Of a stretch of DNA of 35,901 nucleotides, positions 15,709 to 32,582 are shown in pieces. Within the stretch, counting starts at the first letter, position 1; the number at the start of each line of letters is the position of its first letter. A model generated the notes under the pieces. The model was not told the DNA's origin. It did no database searches and worked only from the letters and a program-made list of their open reading frames with translations. Source of the stretch: Clostridiales bacterium (GTDB lineage: Bacteria > Bacillota > Clostridia > Christensenellales > Pumilibacteraceae); contig JAFLVF010000010.1 in NCBI GenBank assembly GCA_022508425.1, positions 1 through 35,901 of the forward strand, given 5' to 3'. A program made the translations under genes and the position numbers.

Positions 15709-16298
15709 TGGGACAGATTAAAGTGCAAAAGAACGTAGGCGGAATAGATGGGCTTTACATCATCGAGCCCGCCGTGCACGGCGACAGCCGCGGATATTTC
15801 ATGGAAACGTACAACAAGCGCGACATGGAAGAAGCCGGGCTCGATATGAATTTCGTTCAGGACAATCAGTCTATGAGTACAAAGGGCGTGCTTCGCGGTC
15901 TGCATTTCCAAAAGCAATATCCGCAGGGCAAGCTCGTGCGCGTGATAAAAGGCGCGGTGTTCGACGTTGCCGTTGATATGCGTAAGGGCAGTAAGACCTT
16001 CGGCAAATGGTTCGGCGTAGAGTTGACTGCGGACAACAAGAAGCAGTTCTATATAAGCGAGGGCTTTGCGCACGGATTTTTGGTACTCAGCGACGAAGCC
16101 GAGTTTTGCTACAAGGTGACCGATTTCTACCATCCCAACGACGAGGGCGGTATAGCTTGGAACGACCCCGGCATAGGTATCGATTGGGGCGTAAAAGGCG
16201 AGTACAAGGGTACCGCCGATCCGAGCGGCTATACGCTGAAAGACGGATCGCCCATTATCATGAGTGATAAAGATAAAAAGTGGGATAAACTACTGTAA
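15708..16298 (+). CDS. rmlC: dTDP-4-dehydrorhamnose 3,5-epimerase
   Basis: A 196-residue cupin epimerase, third enzyme of the rhamnose pathway. It shows PAVHGDSRGYFMETYNK, the catalytic His in RGLHFQ, GKLVRVIKGAVFDVAVDMRKGSKTFGKW and the SEGFAHGFLVLSD motif. The start overlaps the rmlD stop (TAATG). The set rmlA, B, D, C is complete in the operon but interrupted after rmlB by the lipoprotein and the StrF-like transferase. Confidence 0.97.
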   Translation: MGQIKVQKNVGGIDGLYIIEPAVHGDSRGYFMETYNKRDMEEAGLDMNFVQDNQSMSTKGVLRGLHFQKQYPQGKLVRVIKGAVFDVAVDMRKGSKTFGKWFGVELTADNKKQFYISEGFAHGFLVLSDEAEFCYKVTDFYHPNDEGGIAWNDPGIGIDWGVKGEYKGTADPSGYTLKDGSPIIMSDKDKKWDKLL

Positions 16299-16315
16299 AA
16301 TTCGATATATACTAC

Positions 16316-16321
16316 TATAAT
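16316..16321 (+). promoter_or_regulatory. Possible -10 element just before the flippase gene
   Basis: A perfect TATAAT ends eight bases before the flippase ATG, in an A+T-rich gap with no visible ribosome site. The matching -35 position is poor. If active it would give a nearly leaderless mRNA; it may also be chance in A+T-rich sequence. Confidence 0.25.
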
Positions 16322-16329
16322 TATAAATT

Positions 16330-17907
16330 ATGGCAGCAAGCATAAAAAAGAATTTTATATTTAATTTAGTCTATCAAATATTGATTTTGATAGCACCGAT
16401 TATTGTTACGCCTTATGTTGCACGTGTATTGGGCGTTGATAATATCGGTGAATATAGTTACATGCTGTCCATAGTATCGTATTTTTCGCTTTTTGCAGTA
16501 CTCGGTACTACGCTATATGGTCAGCGGGCTATCGGATATGCGCAGCACAATATAGAAGAACGTAGTAAGACTTTTTGGGAATTACTGATATTTCGCATTG
16601 TTACATGTCTAACCACGCTTGGAATATATGTGATTTATATATTCTTTTTTTGTGCGAAAAGCAGTAGATTATTAGCTATTATATTATCTGTCAATATTGT
16701 CGGTGTTATCTTTGACGTATCCTGGTTTATGCAGGGTATGGAAGAGTTCGGCAAAACGGCTACAGCAAGCAGTATTTTCAGAATTCTCAATGTAGTGTTG
16801 GTTTTTTGTCTGGTCAAAGAACAAACAGATTTATGGAAATACGTCACTATCACTGTCGGAAGCTCTATTGCCGGCAGTTTAATTTTATGGATGTTTTTAC
16901 CTAAATATTTATGTCGTGTCAAAGATATACGACCGTTTAAAAACATAAAAAGCATTATTCAGTTGTTTTTGCCGACTATCGCGACCCAGATATATACCGT
17001 TCTCGATAAGTCTATGATAGGTTGGTTTTCCGATGGATATTCTGAAAACGGATATTACGAGCAAGCAGAAAAAATAATTAAAATGTCAGTAACAATAGTC
17101 GTTTCTTTGGGCATTGTAATGATTCCGCGAATTGCAAATTGTTATAAGGAAAAACAATTCGATCGTATCGAGTATTATTTGTATAAGTCTTATAGATATG
17201 TTTGGTTGATGTCTATACCGATAATATTCGGAGTAATATCTATCGCTGATGTTTTCGTACCTGTTTTCTTTGGCCCGGGTTACGATAAATGTATAATCCT
17301 AATGATGATATTAAGTCCATTGACTATTGCAATGGGATTTGGACACGTGACGGGACTGCAATATTTTGTTCCGACGGAGAAGCAGAACATTTTAACTTTA
17401 ACTTATATTATCGGAGCATCTGTAAACGTTATTTTGAATTTGATTTTTATTCCGTTTTTTGCTTCAATAGGAGCATCGGTAGCTACCGTTATTTCGGAGT
17501 TTTGCGTCGCGCTATCTGGGTTGATTTTTGTGAAAAAGAAAAAATTATATGCCCTTAAACCCATTTTTATCAGTTCTTGGAAATATTGGATTGCAGGCAT
17601 TTTAATGGGGGGACTTCTTTATTTAATAAAGCTTTTTATGCCCGTAACAGTTTGGACGTTAGTGGTTTTGATTTTAATAGGAATTATTGTATACTTTTTG
17701 ATGTTATTGATTTTGAGAGATGAAATGATAATGGAAATATTAAACAAATTTTTTAATCGTTTAAAACATAAAACCATATCATCTGACGTAATAGGCGATG
17801 CTACAGATTGTAATGATGATAATTCTTTATCGACTAGTGTGTTTGATGATACTGCAATCAATGAAATAACGGATATGGAAAATAATACGGATAGCGGTAG
17901 CACATGA
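16330..17907 (+). CDS. Wzx-type polysaccharide flippase (MATE/PST-like)
   Basis: A 525-residue membrane protein with about 12-14 hydrophobic segments. It starts KKNFIFNLVYQILILIAPIIVTPYVARVLGVDNIGEYSY, the classic opening of O-antigen/exopolysaccharide flippases, and has QGMEEFGKTA and DKSMIGWFSDGYSENGYYEQAEKI. It would move the undecaprenyl-linked repeat unit to the outer face before polymerisation. The last 45 residues form an acidic, polar tail (many Asp, Asn, Ser) beyond the normal end of the family. The gene is clearly richer in A and T than the genes around it and lacks a recognisable ribosome site, both suggesting separate acquisition. It is the last gene of the operon. Confidence 0.93.
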   Translation: MAASIKKNFIFNLVYQILILIAPIIVTPYVARVLGVDNIGEYSYMLSIVSYFSLFAVLGTTLYGQRAIGYAQHNIEERSKTFWELLIFRIVTCLTTLGIYVIYIFFFCAKSSRLLAIILSVNIVGVIFDVSWFMQGMEEFGKTATASSIFRILNVVLVFCLVKEQTDLWKYVTITVGSSIAGSLILWMFLPKYLCRVKDIRPFKNIKSIIQLFLPTIATQIYTVLDKSMIGWFSDGYSENGYYEQAEKIIKMSVTIVVSLGIVMIPRIANCYKEKQFDRIEYYLYKSYRYVWLMSIPIIFGVISIADVFVPVFFGPGYDKCIILMMILSPLTIAMGFGHVTGLQYFVPTEKQNILTLTYIIGASVNVILNLIFIPFFASIGASVATVISEFCVALSGLIFVKKKKLYALKPIFISSWKYWIAGILMGGLLYLIKLFMPVTVWTLVVLILIGIIVYFLMLLILRDEMIMEILNKFFNRLKHKTISSDVIGDATDCNDDNSLSTSVFDDTAINEITDMENNTDSGST

Positions 17908-17956
17908 TAAATGGTTTTTTATTTATTAAATTAAGTTTTTATTGAAAAGTATGATG

Positions 17957-17982
17957 GAAGTTCGCGTAGAGCTTCTTTTTTT
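17957..17982 (+). terminator. Rho-independent terminator of the polysaccharide operon
   Basis: GAAGTTC (17957-17963) and GAGCTTC (17969-17975) form a seven-pair stem with one G-T pair and a five-base loop, followed directly by seven T. Confidence 0.7.
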
Positions 17983-18074
17983 ACGTCTAAAATTAGAATT
18001 TGATGAAATATGAATTTGACAGTAATCACATTCAAAAAAATATCAGAGTATAGAAAATGAGACTTTATAAACTA

Positions 18075-24966: not shown

Positions 24967-25632
24967 ATGATTATCGGACTTGTATTGTTGGGCATAACGG
25001 CCCTGTTGTTGTTTTTGGGTATTGCAAGGCGCGTTTTTTCAAATTTCGGCGTGCCGTATCTGTTGGCGTTTGTCATAGTAGGCGTTCTCATCGGCAGTGC
25101 TTTTATACCCGCGTTTGATATAGGCAGGGTGTCTGTAAATGCGGCGGGATTTATCGCACCGCTCACGTTCTCGGTAATGTTCTTGTTGCTTGCAAAACGC
25201 AGGAGAGAAGTGTGGTACGCGATAGTCGCGAGCTCATCCACGGCCGCCGTATACGCCGCGGTGCTGTTGTTGATATCGCCTATAACGAGCGTCACCGTCA
25301 CAGTCATTTCGGCGGGTTTTTTGTGCGGCGCGGTCGCTTACCTCGTCGGAAGGACGGAGCTTAGCGCGCTCGCCGCGGTGTTTGCGGGACTGCCGATAGG
25401 CGAGGTGGTATCGTCAATCGTCGGATATTTTTCGCTCGGGCGCGGCATAACGTTGGGCACGGCGGCGACATTCGATACGGTTATACTCGCGGCGGTATTC
25501 GCCGTCGTGCTAAGCGAGGCTATAAGCGCAATCAGGCGCACCATGAATACTCGTAACAAAAAGATCGTGTTGGAAGCGGAGGCCGCCGAGGAGTTCGATC
25601 CGGACGAGTACAAGCGTTATTTCGACGAATAA
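24967..25632 (+). CDS. DUF1614-like integral membrane protein
   Basis: A membrane protein of about 221 residues with some seven hydrophobic segments. GVPYLLAFVIVGVLIGSAFIPAFDIGRVSVNAAGFIAPLTFSVMFLL resembles the start of DUF1614 proteins, which have a conserved N-x-G-G/A-x-x-x-P stretch; function unknown. The C-terminal 25 residues are soluble and acidic. The start is uncertain: the frame is open back to 24859, but a strong terminator lies between, so ATG 24967, right at the first membrane segment, is preferred. No clear ribosome site is seen. Confidence 0.6.
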   Translation: MIIGLVLLGITALLLFLGIARRVFSNFGVPYLLAFVIVGVLIGSAFIPAFDIGRVSVNAAGFIAPLTFSVMFLLLAKRRREVWYAIVASSSTAAVYAAVLLLISPITSVTVTVISAGFLCGAVAYLVGRTELSALAAVFAGLPIGEVVSSIVGYFSLGRGITLGTAATFDTVILAAVFAVVLSEAISAIRRTMNTRNKKIVLEAEAAEEFDPDEYKRYFDE

Positions 25633-25674
25633 CATTAAAAATTCATTAGCTTTCAAAACCTTCCGCAAAAAAGA

Positions 25675-25703
25675 TTTACAAGCGGCGTCGATTGTGATAG
25701 AAT
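25675..25703 (+). promoter_or_regulatory. Sigma-A promoter with extended -10, upstream of der
   Basis: TTTACA (25675-25680) and TAGAAT (25698-25703) are 17 bases apart, and a TG one base before the -10 box makes it an extended -10. It would drive der, plsY and the two ESCRT-III-like genes, with a leader of about 140 bases. Confidence 0.75.
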
Positions 25704-25798
25704 AGAAACAGTCACATATACGGAAAGAATGGTATTCTTGCAGTTACCGCAACAAAATCCAAGTATCAATCTGTGATTGTGACACAAATATTGTAAGT

Positions 25799-25836
25799 CG
25801 CGATTGAATGAGAGACTGAAAAAGTTTTCAATCGCG
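25799..25836 (+). promoter_or_regulatory. Leader hairpin before der
   Basis: CGCGATTGAA (25799-25808) and TTCAATCGCG (25827-25836) form a perfect ten-pair stem with an 18-base loop; it ends 14 bases before the der ATG, where no good ribosome site is visible. Smaller inverted repeats lie upstream in the same leader (AAGAAT-GGT-ATTCTT; CAATC-TGT-GATTG; ACAA-ATA-TTGT). The pattern could control translation or processing; no known riboswitch class is recognised. Confidence 0.5.
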
Positions 25837-25850
25837 GCGTAGTTTACGTT

Positions 25851-27161
25851 ATGAAACCGACGGTCGCGATAGTGGGCAGGCCGAATGTAGGTAAGTCCAC
25901 GCTAATCAACAGAATAAGCGGCAGGCGCGTCGCCATTGTCGACGATATGCCGGGCGTGACAAGGGATAGACTGTATGCCGATTGCGAATGGTGCGGCAAG
26001 TATTTCACTTTGGTAGATACGGGCGGTATTGACGACGGCGACGACGATATCACGCGTTCCGTCAAGCGGCAAGCTTACGAGGCGGTCGATATAGCGAGCG
26101 TAGTTATTTTTGTCGTCGACGTCAAGCAGGGCGTGATATCCGGCGATATCGAGATAGCCGAAGTGCTGAGGAAGAGCAAAAAGCCTATCGTTCTGGCCGT
26201 CAACAAGGTTGACTCGTCGTCGCGCGACAATATTTACGATTTCTATTCGTTGGGGCTTGGCAATCCGTACGGAATATCGGCTGAGCACGGCTCCGGTGTG
26301 GGCGATTTGCTGGACGCAGTTTGCGAAACGTTCGACCGTAACGAAGAGGACGAAACGGAGGCTGTCAAGGTGGCTATCGTCGGCAAACCCAACGTCGGCA
26401 AGTCGTCTATTGTCAACAAGCTGATCGGATACGAGCGCAGTATAGTCTCCGATATGGCGGGCACGACGCGTGACGCCATCGATACCCCGATAAGTGTGGG
26501 CGGCAGGGATTATATCCTAATCGATACGGCGGGAATGCGCAGAAAGCGCGATATAGACAGCGGTACGATCGAGAGATATTCGGTGCTTCGCGCCATAGCG
26601 GCGATCAAGCGCGCCGACGTAGTAATAATAGTAATTGACGCATTGGTCGGCGTCACCGAGCAAGACGAGAAGATAGCGGGGCTTGTGCATGAGTCTGGCA
26701 AGCCGTCCGTCATAGTGCTCAACAAGTGGGACGCCGTCGAGAAGGATACCTTCACTTTCGGCGAGATGAACGACAAGCTCAAAGAGAAGTTCTCGTTTAT
26801 GAGCTATTTCAAGAGCATGGCTGTTTCCGCCAAAACCGGACTGCGGCTCGAAAAACTGATGGGTATTGCGACCGAAAGCTACGAGAATTCGACGCGGCGC
26901 ATACCTACGGGATTGCTCAACGAAATAGTCGGGCAGGCTATATCGGCGACAGAGCCCAATGCAAGAAAAGGAAGGCGCCCCAAAATCTACTATGCGTCGC
27001 AACCGGGCGTGTGTCCGCCCATGTTTGTATTCAAGGTGAACGATCCAAAGCTCATACACTTTTCGTACGAGCGGTATTTGGAAAACAGCTTGCGCCGCGC
27101 CGCCGACTTTTCCGGCACGCCTATACAGCTGAAATTCGTGGGCAAAGGAGATGACGACTGA
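25851..27161 (+). CDS. der: Ribosome-associated GTPase Der (EngA)
   Basis: A 436-residue double GTPase, the usual length, needed for assembly of the large ribosomal subunit. Two G domains are seen: G1 GRPNVGKS (9-16) with NKVD (118-121), and G1 GKPNVGKS (178-185) with NKWD. A KH-like C-terminal domain contains RPKIYYASQPGVCPPMFVFKVN. The stop shares one base with the plsY start. In Bacillota der often begins a cluster that leads through plsY/gpsA-type genes to spoIVA, as here. Confidence 0.97.
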   Translation: MKPTVAIVGRPNVGKSTLINRISGRRVAIVDDMPGVTRDRLYADCEWCGKYFTLVDTGGIDDGDDDITRSVKRQAYEAVDIASVVIFVVDVKQGVISGDIEIAEVLRKSKKPIVLAVNKVDSSSRDNIYDFYSLGLGNPYGISAEHGSGVGDLLDAVCETFDRNEEDETEAVKVAIVGKPNVGKSSIVNKLIGYERSIVSDMAGTTRDAIDTPISVGGRDYILIDTAGMRRKRDIDSGTIERYSVLRAIAAIKRADVVIIVIDALVGVTEQDEKIAGLVHESGKPSVIVLNKWDAVEKDTFTFGEMNDKLKEKFSFMSYFKSMAVSAKTGLRLEKLMGIATESYENSTRRIPTGLLNEIVGQAISATEPNARKGRRPKIYYASQPGVCPPMFVFKVNDPKLIHFSYERYLENSLRRAADFSGTPIQLKFVGKGDDD

Positions 27162-27877
27162 TGAGCATTCCGTTCTATATGGAAGTGATAGTCGGCGTTT
27201 TGGTAGTGCTCGTTTCGTATTTTATCGGCAATATCAACAGCGCCATACTTTTGAGCAAGATGAAGGGCAAGGATATCCGCACGTGCGGCAGCGGCAATCC
27301 CGGCACGATGAATATGATTCGCACCTTCGGAAAACCGATGGGCGCGATTACGCTCGTCCTCGATATCTCGAAGGGCATTGTGCCGTGCGTGCTCGGCTGG
27401 TTGTTTATGGGCACAGGGCAGTTCTGCCGTCTTGGCAGTGACAGAATAGGCTTGTACGTAGCAGGGCTTGCCACCGAGATCGGGCATATATATCCCGTGG
27501 TGATGAAGTTTAAGGGCGGCAAAGGTGTAGCCACGCTGTTCGGCGTGTGTTTGACGTGTCAGCCGATTGCAATGACCGTGTCGTTTGCCGCAGGAGTGGT
27601 CTTGCTGATATTCTCTCAACGCGGTGCGCTGACGTCGTTTGCTATGTTGTCTGTACCGCTTACGCTTGAGGGTATAGCCGCGGCGTCCGGTCCGATGGGC
27701 GTTGTTTCGACGGTGCTTATATTCATGATGTTCGCGTTGACGTTGTTCGCGCACAGGTCCAACCTGTTGACAATGTTCTCCGGCAACGAGCGCAGAGTCG
27801 TGCTCAAAAAGTCGCATAAAGTCAAGCCGTTGCCGGACATATCGATGCTCGTTTACGAGCCTGCTATTGTCGAATAG
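27161..27877 (+). CDS. plsY: Acyl-phosphate:glycerol-3-phosphate acyltransferase PlsY
   Basis: A 238-residue membrane enzyme that acylates glycerol-3-phosphate to start phospholipid synthesis. The three family motifs are clear: FIGNINSAILLSK, CGSGNPGTMNMIRTFGK...DISKG, and GHIYPVVMKFKGGKGVAT. It is somewhat longer than the usual 200 residues because of an insertion around residues 83-95 and a soluble tail of about 40 residues. It overlaps der by one base. The ribosome site of the next, ESCRT-III-like gene overlaps the plsY stop, so that gene is coupled to phospholipid synthesis at the level of the transcript. Confidence 0.95.
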   Translation: MSIPFYMEVIVGVLVVLVSYFIGNINSAILLSKMKGKDIRTCGSGNPGTMNMIRTFGKPMGAITLVLDISKGIVPCVLGWLFMGTGQFCRLGSDRIGLYVAGLATEIGHIYPVVMKFKGGKGVATLFGVCLTCQPIAMTVSFAAGVVLLIFSQRGALTSFAMLSVPLTLEGIAAASGPMGVVSTVLIFMMFALTLFAHRSNLLTMFSGNERRVVLKKSHKVKPLPDISMLVYEPAIVE

Positions 27878-27886
27878 GAGTAGATC

Positions 27887-29176
27887 ATGACCGATATCAA
27901 AAAACGCGCCGAGCGTAACGGCAAGGTAAGGCGCACAATCAATGAAATCGAGCAGACGATAAGGAAGCTCGAGGCCATGAAAGCGGAGTACATGAGAAAG
28001 GCGGTCGATGCTAAGTCTCGCGGCGAGAGCGCTTCGTACAACCTCGCAAAAAGCGCCATAAACACCACTCTCGCACAGGAAAAGCGCGCCAAAGAAATGC
28101 TGCTCAATATCAAGATAACCGCGGAGCTTCAGAAGATGGGCGAGACAAACGCCGACTTTTTGTCAGGCATGTCTACAATCGCCAAAAGCATAGCGAAAGT
28201 AAATAAGAAATCGGACTTCGTCAAGCTCCAAAAAGAAATCGAACGAGCTCTGTCCGGCATGGAAGAGGCGCAAGCAGGGCTCGACGGGTTTTTGCAGAAC
28301 ACCGACGCGGCGTTTTCGGTCATATCGTCCGCGCAGGGCGCGCTGTCCGATTCCGAAATAGACAACCTGATCGACGGCAAAGTAACCGAGAAACAGCTGT
28401 TGATGGACGACGAGATAGAAAGATTACTGTCAGGCATAAACGGTGTCGACAATAACGTTGCCAAAGTCGAAACGGGCGTGCGAAGCGGCGGCGAAAACGC
28501 TAGGCATAACGGAAATAATGCGGCGTCTGCGCCTGCGCTTAAGTTTGATTTCGGCGCGGGTAAATGCGCGCCCATTCCCAAAGAGCTTGCCGATAAATTT
28601 GTAAAGTTCGACGTACCGGCGGTCGCCTTGTCGAATACGCTGATAAACTTAGTAGATAACAATATTTCAGTCCGTGGGCGCAATAACGGCCTGATAGAGT
28701 ACGTCGCTTCTTCCAACGTCGTCAATCTCGGCGGGAAGATAAAGTTTGTATTCTTCGATTTGAGCGGCAGTGGATTATCAAAATTCGACGGTACTGTTTT
28801 ATCGGCGTGCGATGCGGTGACCGATTGGTCGCTTGTCATGCCGACTCTGATCGCAATCAAGGATGAGATTGGCAGACGGCGTGATTCAGCTGTCAAGATG
28901 CCGCACATAGTCGTCGTAATTGACGGCGATTTCGGTGGGGCTGATGAGGTTAATGCGCTACGATACATTATTGACAACGGTAGCACCGTAGGCGTCAGTA
29001 CAATAGTGATGGACAACGACAGAACGTTTGAGTCTGTACATTGCGTTATAGCACGGAAATCGGGAAATGAGTGCGAAGTAATTACTGACGGCAAGGCGAC
29101 GGTCGACCGTTTGCCAGATATCGGCGCCGACGTTGTAGACGCCGTCATATCGATTGTTGCGGAGGATAGAGCATGA
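27887..29176 (+). CDS. ESCRT-III (Snf7/Vps2)-like protein fused to a FtsK/HerA-like half domain
   Basis: A 429-residue protein of two parts. Residues 1-150 are a charged helical region in the ESCRT-III core order: a basic first hairpin (INEIEQTIRKLEAMKAEYMRKAV, SYNLAKSAI), then MLLNIKITAELQKM and GMSTIAKSIAKVNKK, which resembles the Vps2/CHMP2 core. Acidic short motifs follow: EIDNLI (157-162) and DDEIERLLSGI (174-184), placed like MIT-binding motifs. After a loose linker (200-218), residues about 280-400 resemble the second half of a FtsK/SpoIIIE ATPase: KIKFVFFDLSGSGLSKFDG, a Walker-B-like HIVVVIDGD (340-348), VGVSTIVMDND; no Walker A is present. The ribosome site AGGAG overlaps the plsY stop; its own stop overlaps the next start (ATGA). 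Confidence 0.7.
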   Translation: MTDIKKRAERNGKVRRTINEIEQTIRKLEAMKAEYMRKAVDAKSRGESASYNLAKSAINTTLAQEKRAKEMLLNIKITAELQKMGETNADFLSGMSTIAKSIAKVNKKSDFVKLQKEIERALSGMEEAQAGLDGFLQNTDAAFSVISSAQGALSDSEIDNLIDGKVTEKQLLMDDEIERLLSGINGVDNNVAKVETGVRSGGENARHNGNNAASAPALKFDFGAGKCAPIPKELADKFVKFDVPAVALSNTLINLVDNNISVRGRNNGLIEYVASSNVVNLGGKIKFVFFDLSGSGLSKFDGTVLSACDAVTDWSLVMPTLIAIKDEIGRRRDSAVKMPHIVVVIDGDFGGADEVNALRYIIDNGSTVGVSTIVMDNDRTFESVHCVIARKSGNECEVITDGKATVDRLPDIGADVVDAVISIVAEDRA

Positions 29177-29730
29177 GCGACAAGAAACGGATAAAAGAGC
29201 AGATGCTGATAAACCGCGCCGTCGCCTCTATCAAGAAGCAGCTGTCCGATCTCGAAAACAGCCGCAAAGAGTACATTGCGGCGGCGGTCGAGGCTCGGCG
29301 CGAGGGCATAGCTTCGCAATACAACCTCGCCAAGAACGCCATTCGCATAGTTACTGCGCAAAAGGTGGTCGTCGAGCAAATGCTTCTCAATCTTCAGCTG
29401 AGCGCGCAGATAAAAGACGTGTCGGAAATGACAAAGTCGTTCGCCGACGGCATGAAGCTTTTGTCCGGCTCGATTACGGAGACAACGGGCTCGCTCAACT
29501 TCGACAAAGTGACAAAGCAGATGAACAAGGCTATGCTGTCAACGATAGAAAAACAGGCCGAGTCGGAAGCCTTCCTCGGTGCGACGGAAAACAGCTTTTC
29601 GGCGTTTTCGTCGGGTGCGATCTACAATGACGAGATAGACAGGCTGATAGCAAGCAATATGGGCGCGGAGACCGGCGTGGACGACGAGATTGCCGCGCTC
29701 GAGCGTAAGATAAAGTCTACAAAGGTATAG
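29173..29730 (+). CDS. ESCRT-III (Snf7/Vps2)-like protein
   Basis: A 185-residue, almost wholly helical protein, paralogous to the first half of its upstream neighbour. Shared stretches include YNLAK-x-AI, AQ...MLLN, F-x-x-GM (about 90-94) and EIDRLI (154-159). It also shares the closing DDEIAALERKI (170-180). It has no second domain, so it is the plain ESCRT-III form: basic N-terminal hairpin, helical core and acidic C-terminal helix ending five residues before the stop, where MIT-interacting motifs sit in Vps2-type proteins. The C-terminal helix resembles the MIM1 motif in place and character but is not a strict match. It probably co-polymerises with its neighbour on membrane and is handled by the MIT-AAA ATPase downstream. 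PspA/Vipp1, the known bacterial relatives, lack such C-terminal motifs. Confidence 0.7.
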   Translation: MSDKKRIKEQMLINRAVASIKKQLSDLENSRKEYIAAAVEARREGIASQYNLAKNAIRIVTAQKVVVEQMLLNLQLSAQIKDVSEMTKSFADGMKLLSGSITETTGSLNFDKVTKQMNKAMLSTIEKQAESEAFLGATENSFSAFSSGAIYNDEIDRLIASNMGAETGVDDEIAALERKIKSTKV

Positions 29731-29732
29731 AG

Positions 29733-29861
29733 TTTGAAAGTACATTCATCGCGTGATGCGGACTACGTGTACGATGGTCGGCTCGGTCACTTAGGTCTGA
29801 CTAAGCTCCCTTCGCCGACCGCGTACCTGTTGTCCACCTGACGCGCGACTGTACTTTCAAA
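29733..29861 (+). ncRNA. Long rod-like inverted repeat, possible structured RNA
   Basis: TTTGAAAGTACA (29733-29744) and TGTACTTTCAAA (29850-29861) form a perfect 12-pair outer stem. Inside it nest TCGCG/CGCGA (29749-29753 with 29844-29848), GGAC/GTCC (29760-29763 with 29832-29835), GTAC/GTAC (29769-29772 with 29823-29826), GGTCGGC/GCCGACC (29776-29782 with 29814-29820) and CTTAG/CTAAG (29790-29794 with 29801-29805), closing on a six-base loop. Most internal loops are near symmetric. No T-run follows, so it is not a plain terminator. It fills the gap between the second ESCRT-III-like gene and the ATPase gene. It could be a processing or attenuation element, a small RNA, or a miniature mobile element; no known family is recognised. 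Confidence 0.6.
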
Positions 29862-29892
29862 TACATTTTGATAGTGAGGGTATGGTCATCAA

Positions 29893-30924
29893 ATGACAGA
29901 CAACAGCTTGAAGCTCGATATGTTCAAAGAGGCGTACGACAGCGCCGTCGCCGCGTTTAACAACGGGCAAGCGGAGAGGGCGAGGACGCTGTTTCGCCGC
30001 GCGGCGGAACTTATGGACGAGATCGCAAGTTCGAGCGAGCCTGCGTTATCCGCCAAGCGAAGAGAGCGCGCCGAAAAGCTTCGCTATCTCGCAGAAAACC
30101 TCACTTCGACGAACTCCTCATCGATGTCGGACGGCGAACAAACCTTTTTGCATGCCGACAAGCCGACCGAGCGCGTGTCGTTTGACGATATCATCGGGCT
30201 TGACGACGCCAAGGCGGCGATACGGCGGCTTCTTATCGATCCGCTAAAGAATCCCGAGGCATACAAGAAATACGGGTTGAAAGCAGGCGGATATATACTG
30301 CTCGAAGGCCCGCCGGGCACGGGCAAAACCACTTTTGCAAAGGCGACGGCGAGCGAACTTGACGTGCCCTTTTACAATATCAACGCCAACGAGCTTGTCG
30401 ATTCGTATATAGGCAAGACGGGCAAGAACATAGACAAACTGTTCGATTCGGCGCGCTCCGCCGCCAAAGCAGCGGGCAAGCCCATCGTGATATTTATCGA
30501 TGAGATAGACTATCTCGCGCAAAAGCGCGGCGGCGAGAATAAGACGGCGGGGGAAGCGGTGCCCACGCTCATCAAGCAAATGGACGGGTTTGCGTCCGAC
30601 TCGACTGACTTGGTACTGATAGCGGCGACCAACATAAGTTCGTCGCTCGACCCGGCGATATTGAGCCGTTTTCGCAACGTAATCAATATTCCTTTGCCCA
30701 ACGCCGCCGAGCGTGAAAGGATACTCGAATCCAAACTTAAGATGCTCGACAAGGCGGATTTCGAGGCTATTGACTTTACGCGCGTCGCCGTCAAGACTGA
30801 AGGGAAGTCGGGTCGCGATATGAGCCGCATAGCGCTCGAACTCAAGAGCGCGCTCGCTTCGCGCGACGCAGGGCTTGCAGTCATTACCAAATCTCTTACC
30901 GATATATTGATAGACGCCATTTAA
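29893..30924 (+). CDS. Vps4-like AAA+ ATPase with N-terminal MIT-like domain
   Basis: A 343-residue ATPase with the architecture of Vps4, the enzyme that disassembles ESCRT-III filaments. Residues 6-72 look like a three-helix MIT domain (KEAYDSAVAAFNNGQAERARTLFRRAAELMDEI ... RRERAEKLRYLAENL). After a Ser-rich linker, the AAA+ core starts VSFDDIIGLDDAKAAI. It has Walker A GPPGTGKT (139-146), pore loop YIG (172-174) in NELVDSYIGKTGKNIDKLF, Walker B IVIFIDEID (198-206), sensor 1 AATN and the SRFRN region where arginine fingers lie. A C-terminal helical domain completes it. FtsH-type proteases can be excluded: no membrane segments, no zinc protease. The ATG at 29893 overlaps a four-codon frame starting at 29882. 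A terminator follows. Confidence 0.85.
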   Translation: MTDNSLKLDMFKEAYDSAVAAFNNGQAERARTLFRRAAELMDEIASSSEPALSAKRRERAEKLRYLAENLTSTNSSSMSDGEQTFLHADKPTERVSFDDIIGLDDAKAAIRRLLIDPLKNPEAYKKYGLKAGGYILLEGPPGTGKTTFAKATASELDVPFYNINANELVDSYIGKTGKNIDKLFDSARSAAKAAGKPIVIFIDEIDYLAQKRGGENKTAGEAVPTLIKQMDGFASDSTDLVLIAATNISSSLDPAILSRFRNVINIPLPNAAERERILESKLKMLDKADFEAIDFTRVAVKTEGKSGRDMSRIALELKSALASRDAGLAVITKSLTDILIDAI

Positions 30925-30941
30925 TGAAACGAAGTATCTAT

Positions 30942-30965
30942 ACGGCACGCTTACGTGCCGTTTTT
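30942..30965 (+). terminator. Terminator after the AAA+ ATPase gene
   Basis: ACGGCACG (30942-30949) and CGTGCCGT (30954-30961) form a perfect eight-pair stem with a CTTA loop, followed by T. It separates the ESCRT-like genes from spoIVA. Confidence 0.9.
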
Positions 30966-31039
30966 GTTTTTCGGAAAAATTCATATCATTATCGGCTTAG
31001 AAGCTGCGGAACGTAAATAACGTTAAAAAACGAAAAATG

Positions 31040-31068
31040 TCATAATGCTTTTTTTCGGCACATATAAT
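31040..31068 (+). promoter_or_regulatory. Sigma-E-type promoter of spoIVA
   Basis: TCATAAT (31040-31046) and CATATAAT (31061-31068) are 14 bases apart. Against the known sigma-E consensus (KMATATT, 13-15 bases, CATACANT) each box has one mismatch. Transcription would start near 31076, about 25 bases before the spoIVA ATG. In Bacillus subtilis spoIVA is a sigma-E gene. Confidence 0.75.
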
Positions 31069-31100
31069 CAATTAGCTATCAGTTGTCGGACGGAGGTATT

Positions 31101-32582
31101 ATGGAAGAGTACGACGTATATAAAGACATTGCGGAGCGAACGGGCGGAGATATTTATATCGGGGTTGTCGGACCTGTGCGGTCGGGCAAGTCCACGTTTA
31201 TAACTAACTTTATGAACGCGTTCGTCTTACCGCAGACCACGGGCTACGAGCTCGAGCGCATGCGCGACGAACTGCCGCAGAGTGCGGAAGGGCGCACCGT
31301 AATGACCACACAGCCCAAGTTCGTGCCGAGCGAGGCGGCCACAATCAACTTGAGCGACACCGCCAAAATTTCCGTGCGGCTTGTCGACTGCGTAGGGTAC
31401 ATGGTCGACGGTGCTAACGGGCATATGGAAGGTGACGCGCCGCGGCTTGTCAACACGCCGTGGAACGACGATCCCATTCCGTTTGAGCGCGCCGCCGAGA
31501 TCGGAACGAAAAAGGTAATCACCGATCACTCGTCGATAGGCGTCGTAATGACGTGCGACGGGTCTATCAAGACGGAGCTTCCCCGCGAAAGTTATGTATC
31601 GGCGGAGGAGCGCACCGTTGCCGAGCTTAAGGCTATCGGCAAGCCGTTTATAATAGTTCTCAATTCTGCGGTGCCCGATTCGCCCGAAACGCACAAAATC
31701 GCAGACGGTCTGGCCGAAAAATATAACTGCGCCGTCATGCCGCTAAACGTCGCCAATCTCACCAAGGACGACGTCGTCAAGCTGTTCGAAACGGTGTTGT
31801 ACGAGTTCCCCGTGCGCGACGTATATATGTCGTCGTCGAGCTGGATCAAGGCGCTCGACAGCAGCAGCGAGATAAGCTCTGAACTGATTAAGCTTACAAC
31901 GGCGCTCGCGTCTAAGGTCGAGCGCATGCGCGATTGTACGGCGCCCATTGACATTTCTGACGGAGAGTGCGAGTTCTTCGACGGGTTCGAATTAGACAAG
32001 GTCGAGCTTGACAAGGGCAGGGCGATATTCAAAGTCAAAGAGAAAGAGGGATTATTCTACCGCGCACTCAAGGACGCGTGCGGATTGGATATCAAAGACG
32101 AATTCGATCTCATGTCGTCTATCGGCGATCTCGTCAAGGCAAAACGCGCTTACGACAAGATGGAAGCGGCGCTTAACCAAGTCGCAGAGACGGGCTACGG
32201 CGTAGTGACGCCCACTCTCGGCGAAATGACGCTAAACGATCCGGTTGTATTCAAGCAGGGCTCGCGCTTCGGCGTCAAACTGAAAGCGTCCGCGCCCAGC
32301 CTTCACATCATGCGCGTCGATATCGAGACCGAGGTCTGTCCCGTCGTCGGCACCGAGCAGCAGAGCGAGGAGCTTGTCAACTATCTTCTGAGCGAGTTCG
32401 AGCAAAATCCCAAGGATATTTGGCAGACCAACATGTTCGGCAAGTCGCTCGAAAGTCTGGTTAACGAGGGACTCAACAACAAACTGAACGCTATGCCCAC
32501 CGAAACGCAAAAGAAGATGCGGAAAACGTTGTCACGCATAATCAACGAGGGCAGAGGCGGCATAATCTGCATACTTCTGTAA
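31101..32582 (+). CDS. spoIVA: Stage IV sporulation protein A (spore coat ATPase)
   Basis: A 493-residue protein matching SpoIVA across its whole length. The mother-cell protein binds and hydrolyses ATP and polymerises irreversibly on the outer forespore membrane as the coat basement layer. The start VYKDIAERTGGDIYIGVVGPVRSGKST includes the Walker A (24-31). DELPQSAEGRTVMTTQPKFVP, VRLVDCVGYMVDGA and NTPWNDDPIPFERAAEIGT follow. The C-terminus ends GRGGIICILL, the region that in the family inserts next to SpoVM on curved membrane. ATG 31101 has GGAGG upstream; the frame is open to a TTG at 31083, which is less likely. Confidence 0.97.
   Translation: MEEYDVYKDIAERTGGDIYIGVVGPVRSGKSTFITNFMNAFVLPQTTGYELERMRDELPQSAEGRTVMTTQPKFVPSEAATINLSDTAKISVRLVDCVGYMVDGANGHMEGDAPRLVNTPWNDDPIPFERAAEIGTKKVITDHSSIGVVMTCDGSIKTELPRESYVSAEERTVAELKAIGKPFIIVLNSAVPDSPETHKIADGLAEKYNCAVMPLNVANLTKDDVVKLFETVLYEFPVRDVYMSSSSWIKALDSSSEISSELIKLTTALASKVERMRDCTAPIDISDGECEFFDGFELDKVELDKGRAIFKVKEKEGLFYRALKDACGLDIKDEFDLMSSIGDLVKAKRAYDKMEAALNQVAETGYGVVTPTLGEMTLNDPVVFKQGSRFGVKLKASAPSLHIMRVDIETEVCPVVGTEQQSEELVNYLLSEFEQNPKDIWQTNMFGKSLESLVNEGLNNKLNAMPTETQKKMRKTLSRIINEGRGGIICILL

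Follow-up and report, generated by a model that had tools for sequence, protein, structure and literature searches.

A stretch of 35,901 nucleotides from a Clostridiales bacterium (assembly GCA_022508425.1, contig JAFLVF010000010.1), here called the window, carries between plsY and spoIVA a module of three genes that encode two ESCRT-III-like proteins, for which the names EscA and EscB were coined in this analysis, and a Vps4-like AAA+ ATPase (Table 1). As stated in the original prediction, which was made from the sequence of the window, the reading frames of escA and escB share 4 bases. The spacing between plsY and escA is 9 bases, and a gap of 162 bases between escB and the ATPase gene contains a dispersed repeat. 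This repeat was missed in the original prediction, as was the apparent origin of EscA residues 201–429 (229 residues) from an FtsK/SpoIIIE protein. The identities of der, plsY and spoIVA come from Pfam, and that of spoIVA from NCBIfam too.

Table 1. Features of the escA-escB-ATPase module and its surroundings, in window coordinates.
Feature	Position	Strand	Description
escA	27887..29176	+	429 aa; ESCRT-III-like domain (residues 1-200) and degenerate FtsK/SpoIIIE domain (about 201-429)
ESCRT-III-like domain of EscA	27887..28486	+	EscB-profile match, E 5e-44
Putative decayed FtsK/SpoIIIE motor of EscA	28487..29173	+	this copy without Walker A
escB	29173..29730	+	ESCRT-III-like, 185 aa, acidic amphipathic C-terminal tail
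vps4-like gene	29893..30924	+	343 aa; three-helix MIT-like N-terminus and classical AAA+ ATPase
MIT-like (or TPR-like) three-helix bundle	29905..30096	+	ATPase residues 5-68; AlphaFold2 pLDDT about 90
Dispersed repeat	29733..29861	.	15-nt inverted ends, 93% complementary; between escB and ATPase gene
Intrinsic-terminator-like site	30942..30961	+	between module and spoIVA; 8-pair stem, then T run
Promoter-like site	25675..25703	+	upstream of der; 10/12 consensus positions, consensus match only

ESCRT-III likeness of EscA and EscB

Residues 1–200 of EscA and EscB are, judged by sequence, paralogues (31% identity, BLASTP E 1e-25). Both turn from basic to acidic along their length, the net charge of residues 1–100 being +8 in EscA and +6 in EscB, and that beyond residue 100 being -7 (EscA, to residue 200) and -5 (EscB). 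Two acidic C-terminal motifs are present in each, SDSEIDNLI and MDDEIERLL in EscA and NDEIDRLI and VDDEIAALE in EscB; the pair of paralogues looks as the original prediction had described it. Of 46 relatives with a natural end, 31 carry the pattern [DE]xx[LIVM]xx[LIVM]xx[KR] in the tail (shuffled sequences: mean 1.8, maximum 6) and 13 an EID-x-LI-like pattern (mean 0.4, maximum 3); because the sequences are related, these counts measure conservation and not independent events. The tails may in part resemble the MIT-interacting motif MIM1.

The module is under selection. Among four genomes of the window's genus (G000, G013, G016 and G017; six pairs), the ratio of nonsynonymous to synonymous differences (pN/pS) was 0.23–0.32 for EscA 1–200, 0.19–0.29 for EscB and 0.34–0.39 for the ATPase, with 0.15–0.26 for SpoIVA as a comparison; the values are rough, since synonymous sites are near saturation. 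Window-type EscA and EscB form two starred clades in a tree built from 51 ESCRT-III-like domains, and because each of these contains copies from genomes G020 and G031, the duplication that gave rise to the pair predates the genus.

Homology to ESCRT-III is seen at the level of the family. Pfam Snf7 was matched at E<=1 by 22 of the 51 family members (best 2.8e-8), more than matched any other Pfam family, and the relative at locus L055, alone in exceeding the curated cut-off (29.4 against 27.3 bits), did so with a nearly full-length match. EscB itself (P0002) scored E 0.77 and EscA (P0001) had no Snf7 match at E<=1, so that by sequence comparison Snf7 membership belongs to the family and not to the window's copies alone. 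Membership of the PspA type was rejected, as PspA_IM30 was matched by 2 of the 51 at a best E of 0.2 and had no match at E<=1 in the window's own genome. Snf7 found nothing in that genome, which says little because above the cut-off the model found nothing in 14 control genomes either; below the cut-off 9 of these 14 matched, Sulfolobus among them. Sequence searches of the PDB with P0002, A1, A2, A4 and one relative returned nothing below E 0.1.

The AlphaFold model of EscB, of modest confidence (pLDDT 63), has helices at residues 2–44, 47–104, 110–145 and 150–183. This predicted order is that of ESCRT-III, with a long alpha1-alpha2/3 hairpin followed by alpha4 and alpha5, in agreement with the original prediction. 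A Foldseek search with the model placed members of the ESCRT-III superfamily at all of PDB ranks 1–17, and Vipp1 and PspA were among its matches.

A contrary account would have EscA and EscB as unrelated coiled coils and the ATPase as a TPR-AAA chaperone, their likeness to ESCRT components being convergence. The weak direct sequence scores of the window proteins fit such an account, as do VIA Z scores, in which the helical hairpins tie with unrelated folds, and the TPR models that match the N-terminal domain of the ATPase (see below). Convergence is hard to square, however, with the L055 match over the gathering score, with the breadth of the Snf7 matches and with the uniform Foldseek ranking; in addition, the 25 (of 37) Pfam families listed for Esc2, the other helical protein of related operons, do not include Snf7. 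We therefore regard convergence as very improbable. Esc2 was itself tried as another ESCRT-III protein and found no support (hhalign of A2 against A4, probability 0.2, E 0.3).

The FtsK/SpoIIIE half of EscA and other motor fusions

The C-terminal part of EscA in the window lacks Walker A and by itself matches nothing in Pfam at E<=0.01. It does match, by phmmer, relatives that carry FtsK_SpoIIIE (E 1.8e-8 to L047, 3.7e-5 to L023), and from these sequence matches residues 201–429 are identified as a decayed FtsK/SpoIIIE motor, complete-looking in relatives. Pfam FtsK_SpoIIIE matched EscA at 1.6e-45 in L050 (genome G020), 9.4e-41 in L048 (G031), 4.9e-29 in L023 (G013) and 2e-28 in L047 (G017), with FtsK_alpha present in L050 and L048. 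An alignment of eight EscA proteins suggests how the decay may have gone: the motor looks complete in four genomes (G020, G031, G391 and G267), has kept Walker A and lost the alpha domain in G017 and G013, has lost Walker A in the window, and is gone entirely from G016. The ESCRT-III-like part is retained in all eight, and the C-terminal part evolves faster (pN/pS 0.63–0.68, three pairs). We take the ESCRT-III-like domain of EscA to occupy the place that the membrane anchor has in FtsK.

Fusions to a second kind of motor were also found. Proteins at L122 (3969–5633; Snf7 2.4e-5) and L124 (1301–4183; Snf7 6.2e-4) join an ESCRT-III-like domain to a RuvB-type AAA+ (RuvB_N and RuvB_C in both), and one at L130 (4294–6825) has an N-terminus that matches the MIT profile (4e-9) followed by RuvB domains. 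A similar protein at L131 (8691–10883) combines RuvB with a TnsA-like nuclease domain (4.1e-6) and has no MIT-profile match. Beside the EscA-EscB-MIT-AAA cluster of G020 lie a Snf2-like helicase and a trypsin-like protease, assigned by eye (L050, 2–2251 and 9638–10816).

The ATPase and its linkage to escB in relatives

The best NCBIfam model for the ATPase is CdvC (E 7.1e-48, residues 11–314), at a score far below the curated cut-off. In a structure comparison the model of the protein was closest to archaeal Vps4, by a narrow margin; its core may be of the Vps4 type, as the original prediction proposed. Vps4_C is absent among the 25 of 44 families listed for the ATPase, which ends before these alignment columns; among relatives it is over the cut-off in L110 and below it in L055, L060 and L061.

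The N-terminus is predicted by AlphaFold2 to be a bundle of three helices (residues 5–23, 27–46 and 50–68), which upholds the three-helix part of the original MIT assignment. At the sequence level TPR models match the N-termini of more members than MIT does: TPR_2 matched 11 of 40 ATPase relatives (best 0.0047) and TPR_8 10, against 2 for Pfam MIT (best 1.4e-6), and in a further sequence search the MIT chains of archaeal Vps4 (E 0.15 and 0.34) ranked behind TPR designs. VIA-align of the ATPase model listed no chain over residues 1–78, so that this comparison barely covers residues 1–80. The N-terminus could be MIT-like, and its modelled fold is that of a three-helix bundle of the MIT or TPR kind.

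Genes of the EscB type are patchily spread within one order and hardly seen outside it. A single-protein search found them in 13 of 61 close genomes, and a 16-row profile in 44 of the 396 searched within the order, spread over 22 of 142 genera. A search across the phylum matched 1 of 398, the window itself, and one across the class 5 of 391, four of them within the order and one a weak match containing a stop. The gene linkage whose absence elsewhere would have counted against the original prediction does recur: an open reading frame that matches the MIT profile lies within 6 kb on the same strand of 55 of 62 EscB-type frames, and at 41 of 47 EscB loci, among 56 profiled loci that are not a random sample, because most were fetched around EscB or AAA matches. 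If these AAA+ genes count as vps4-like, ESCRT-III and vps4 genes are linked here. The recurrent order is an SPFH protein (in some cases with a zinc ribbon, as in L061), a protein of about 109 aa, the helical Esc2 of about 200 aa, EscB and a MIT-AAA protein with single or tandem AAA; SPFH-type proteins occur at 37 of the 47 EscB loci, the window locus not being one of them.

Several further loci deserve mention. The window's own genome has a further MIT-AAA locus (L060, 6277–9111, contig C72), with SPFH, the 109-aa protein and Esc2 but without EscB. On a contig labelled Omnitrophota (L025, 2245–4614), a MIT-AAA gene (MIT profile 7e-4) immediately follows genes for two proteins, of 234 and 211 aa, that look helical by eye; this is possibly a parallel in another phylum or else a case of misbinning. 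A TIR-NB-ARC protein lies between module and spoIVA in G017 (L047, 9390–12713), and a TIR protein beside the SPFH/MIT-AAA locus in G016 (L061, 9060–11498).

Role of the module and relation to known systems

In archaea and eukaryotes, ESCRT-III filaments and the Vps4 motor deform and sever membranes. We suggest that the module probably works in a like manner at the cytoplasmic membrane, with an ESCRT-III polymer formed by EscA and EscB and the ATPase as its Vps4-type remodeller. EscA and EscB, as two old ESCRT-III-like paralogues, would co-polymerise on the inner face of that membrane, touching it through the basic alpha1-alpha2 hairpin. The MIT-like N-terminus of the ATPase would dock on their acidic amphipathic C-terminal tails, and the ATPase, by analogy with Vps4/CdvC, would extract filament subunits through its pore. 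An ancestral EscA may have joined an FtsK/SpoIIIE-type DNA pump to the filament, which replaced the membrane anchor of an ordinary FtsK, and the lineage of the window would then have let the pump decay while retaining polymer and remodeller. Neither the predicted fold of EscB nor the ATPase N-terminus nor the gene linkage, the three points on which the original prediction had offered itself for refutation, contradicts an ESCRT-III/Vps4-like reading; what fared badly was its suggestion of a task in sporulation.

According to that suggestion the module would be a partner of SpoIVA in making the septum, in engulfment or in building the coat. In its favour, the sporulation septum is a site of action of SpoIIIE, a member of the FtsK family. 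Of 20 genomes of the genus, 17 (the window's own among them) have a SpoIVA match, and in 4 of the 17 the module sits between plsY and spoIVA, immediately ahead of spoIVA in the window and G013 and with further genes in G016 and G017. In the other 13, however, plsY adjoins spoIVA without the module, and in 10 of the 17 EscB is unmatched anywhere at E 1e-3 (G018, among these, has a weak profile match of 1.3e-8). A terminator-like site also separates module from spoIVA, a SpoIVA query matched only the window, L023 and L046 among 24 loci tested (L047 has spoIVA at its edge), and a separate FtsK, the one protein to exceed the cut-off, is encoded in the window's own genome (completeness 94%, contamination 6.6%). 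The EscB-less genomes, the plsY-spoIVA adjacency and the terminator-like site in particular set sporulation back as the main role, and we consider it improbable. On the SpoIVA tree, in which the G000 row has a long branch, the presence of the module needs 3 changes, at least 2 of them by starred branches, which a single gain with two losses could explain.

The spacing of the genes suggests that the module may be co-transcribed with der-plsY, and spacing is the whole ground for this, because promoter-like sites in 25600–31200 are no commoner than in shuffles (5 against a mean of 5.2, hence weak) and a + strand terminator-like site lies inside der (27005–27020). Of the + strand promoter-like sites one is upstream of der and one within escB (29509–29537). 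Terminator-like sites in the same interval number 11, against a shuffle mean of 6.5, and Rfam at gathering scores had no matches in 27000–31500. In the window's own genome 37 places match the query 29728–29892, the window's own two included, and on that account the dispersed repeat is possibly an element like a miniature inverted-repeat transposable element; escB and the ATPase gene are nearly contiguous in G013 and G017. Elsewhere in the window, 16001–18000 has a GC content of 0.356, against 0.45–0.54 in other 2-kb windows.

The patchy presence of the family in the order could also point to a conflict or stress-response system, possibly anti-phage, built from ESCRT-III/Vps4-like parts, with the filament as sensor or membrane effector, exchangeable effector domains, and the window copy as a reduced member. 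The proposal is about what the module does and does not conflict with the polymer-plus-remodeller mechanism. In relatives, TIR, TIR-NB-ARC, FtsK, RuvB and TnsA-like nuclease domains occur in linked genes or in fusions, and the PADLOC model IetA matches the ATPase of the window at 1.3e-43. IetA is itself an AAA ATPase and its models also match the AAA proteins of L061 and L054, so that the match may be generic, and PADLOC has no match to EscA or EscB at E<=0.001. As PADLOC matches concern only the AAA protein of the window, a known anti-phage system was rejected. No recognised effector stands beside the window module, and across the four genomes its synonymous divergence is broadly similar to that of spoIVA. 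Although FtsK domains predicted to be inactive are reported in NTP-dependent conflict systems (PMC7159879), we think a conflict role rather unlikely.

Within the polymer-plus-remodeller reading, the likeliest role of the module is to close or mend the cytoplasmic membrane in growing cells, where it might help to seal the septum or repair the envelope; the host has FtsZ and no detectable PspA. We rate this role as possible, somewhat short of an even chance. More tentatively still, and with doubt prevailing, bacteria of this order may run true Snf7-type (not PspA-type) ESCRT-III/Vps4 machines, in some genomes at more than one locus, whose ESCRT-III filaments carry DNA motors (FtsK, RuvB) to clear trapped DNA during membrane closure, in effect abscission machinery that brings its own DNA pump.

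A Snf7-type pair linked to an AAA+ remodeller, seen in many genomes within a single bacterial order, would change the map of ESCRT distribution. A 2024 survey restricts systems that combine vps4 with ESCRT-III to archaea and eukaryotes (PMC10936438), and a 2023 review finds a clear Vps4 homologue lacking in bacteria (PMC7615534). The module would give bacteria a candidate ATP-driven membrane-fission machine, where FisB is called the only known dedicated one (PMC8274934). Among the matches listed from the open-licence literature there was no report of a linked bacterial pair of ESCRT-III and MIT-Vps4, and none described ESCRT-III-FtsK or ESCRT-III-RuvB fusions, in which DNA handling and an ESCRT-III-like domain are physically coupled. 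The three proteins of the module are small and lend themselves to biochemistry.

Among known systems, the FtsK/SpoIIIE translocases share FtsK_SpoIIIE with EscA of G020, G031, G017 and G013, whereas the motor of the window is without Walker A. Bacterial Vps4-like AAA+ proteins are described in a 2024 study, which also places homologues of Snf7 or PspA close to AAA+ ATPases within longer operons (PMC11237479). Its cases differ from the present one: either a TPR-6TM protein has taken the place of snf7 next to the transferred vps4, or a Snf7 homologue with a transmembrane segment sits in transporter operons, and its section on these associations has neither FtsK or RuvB fusions nor an EscA-EscB pair. 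PspA, Vipp1 and LiaH likewise represent the ESCRT-III superfamily in bacteria and in part answer to EscB in Foldseek, but here two acidic-tailed paralogues have an AAA+ partner and Snf7 is the better-matched profile. The archaeal Meth_adaptin ESCRT locus has an SPFH protein with a zinc ribbon (PMC10936438), which recalls the SPFH-type proteins at most EscB loci; the window locus is without an SPFH gene, and adaptin-like domains were not searched for here. With the archaeal Cdv system and its CdvC the module shares ESCRT-III-like genes next to a gene for an AAA+ protein whose N-terminus may be MIT-like, Snf7 and not PspA profile matches, and acidic C-terminal tails; the ATPase, as modelled here, is structurally nearest archaeal Vps4, by a narrow margin. 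No CdvA or winged-helix gene was noticed among the scanned neighbours, neither having been searched for on purpose, and in contrast to Cdv the present host is a bacterium with FtsZ, the ATPase of the window is without a Vps4_C tail, and some members of the family fuse FtsK or RuvB to the ESCRT-III domain.

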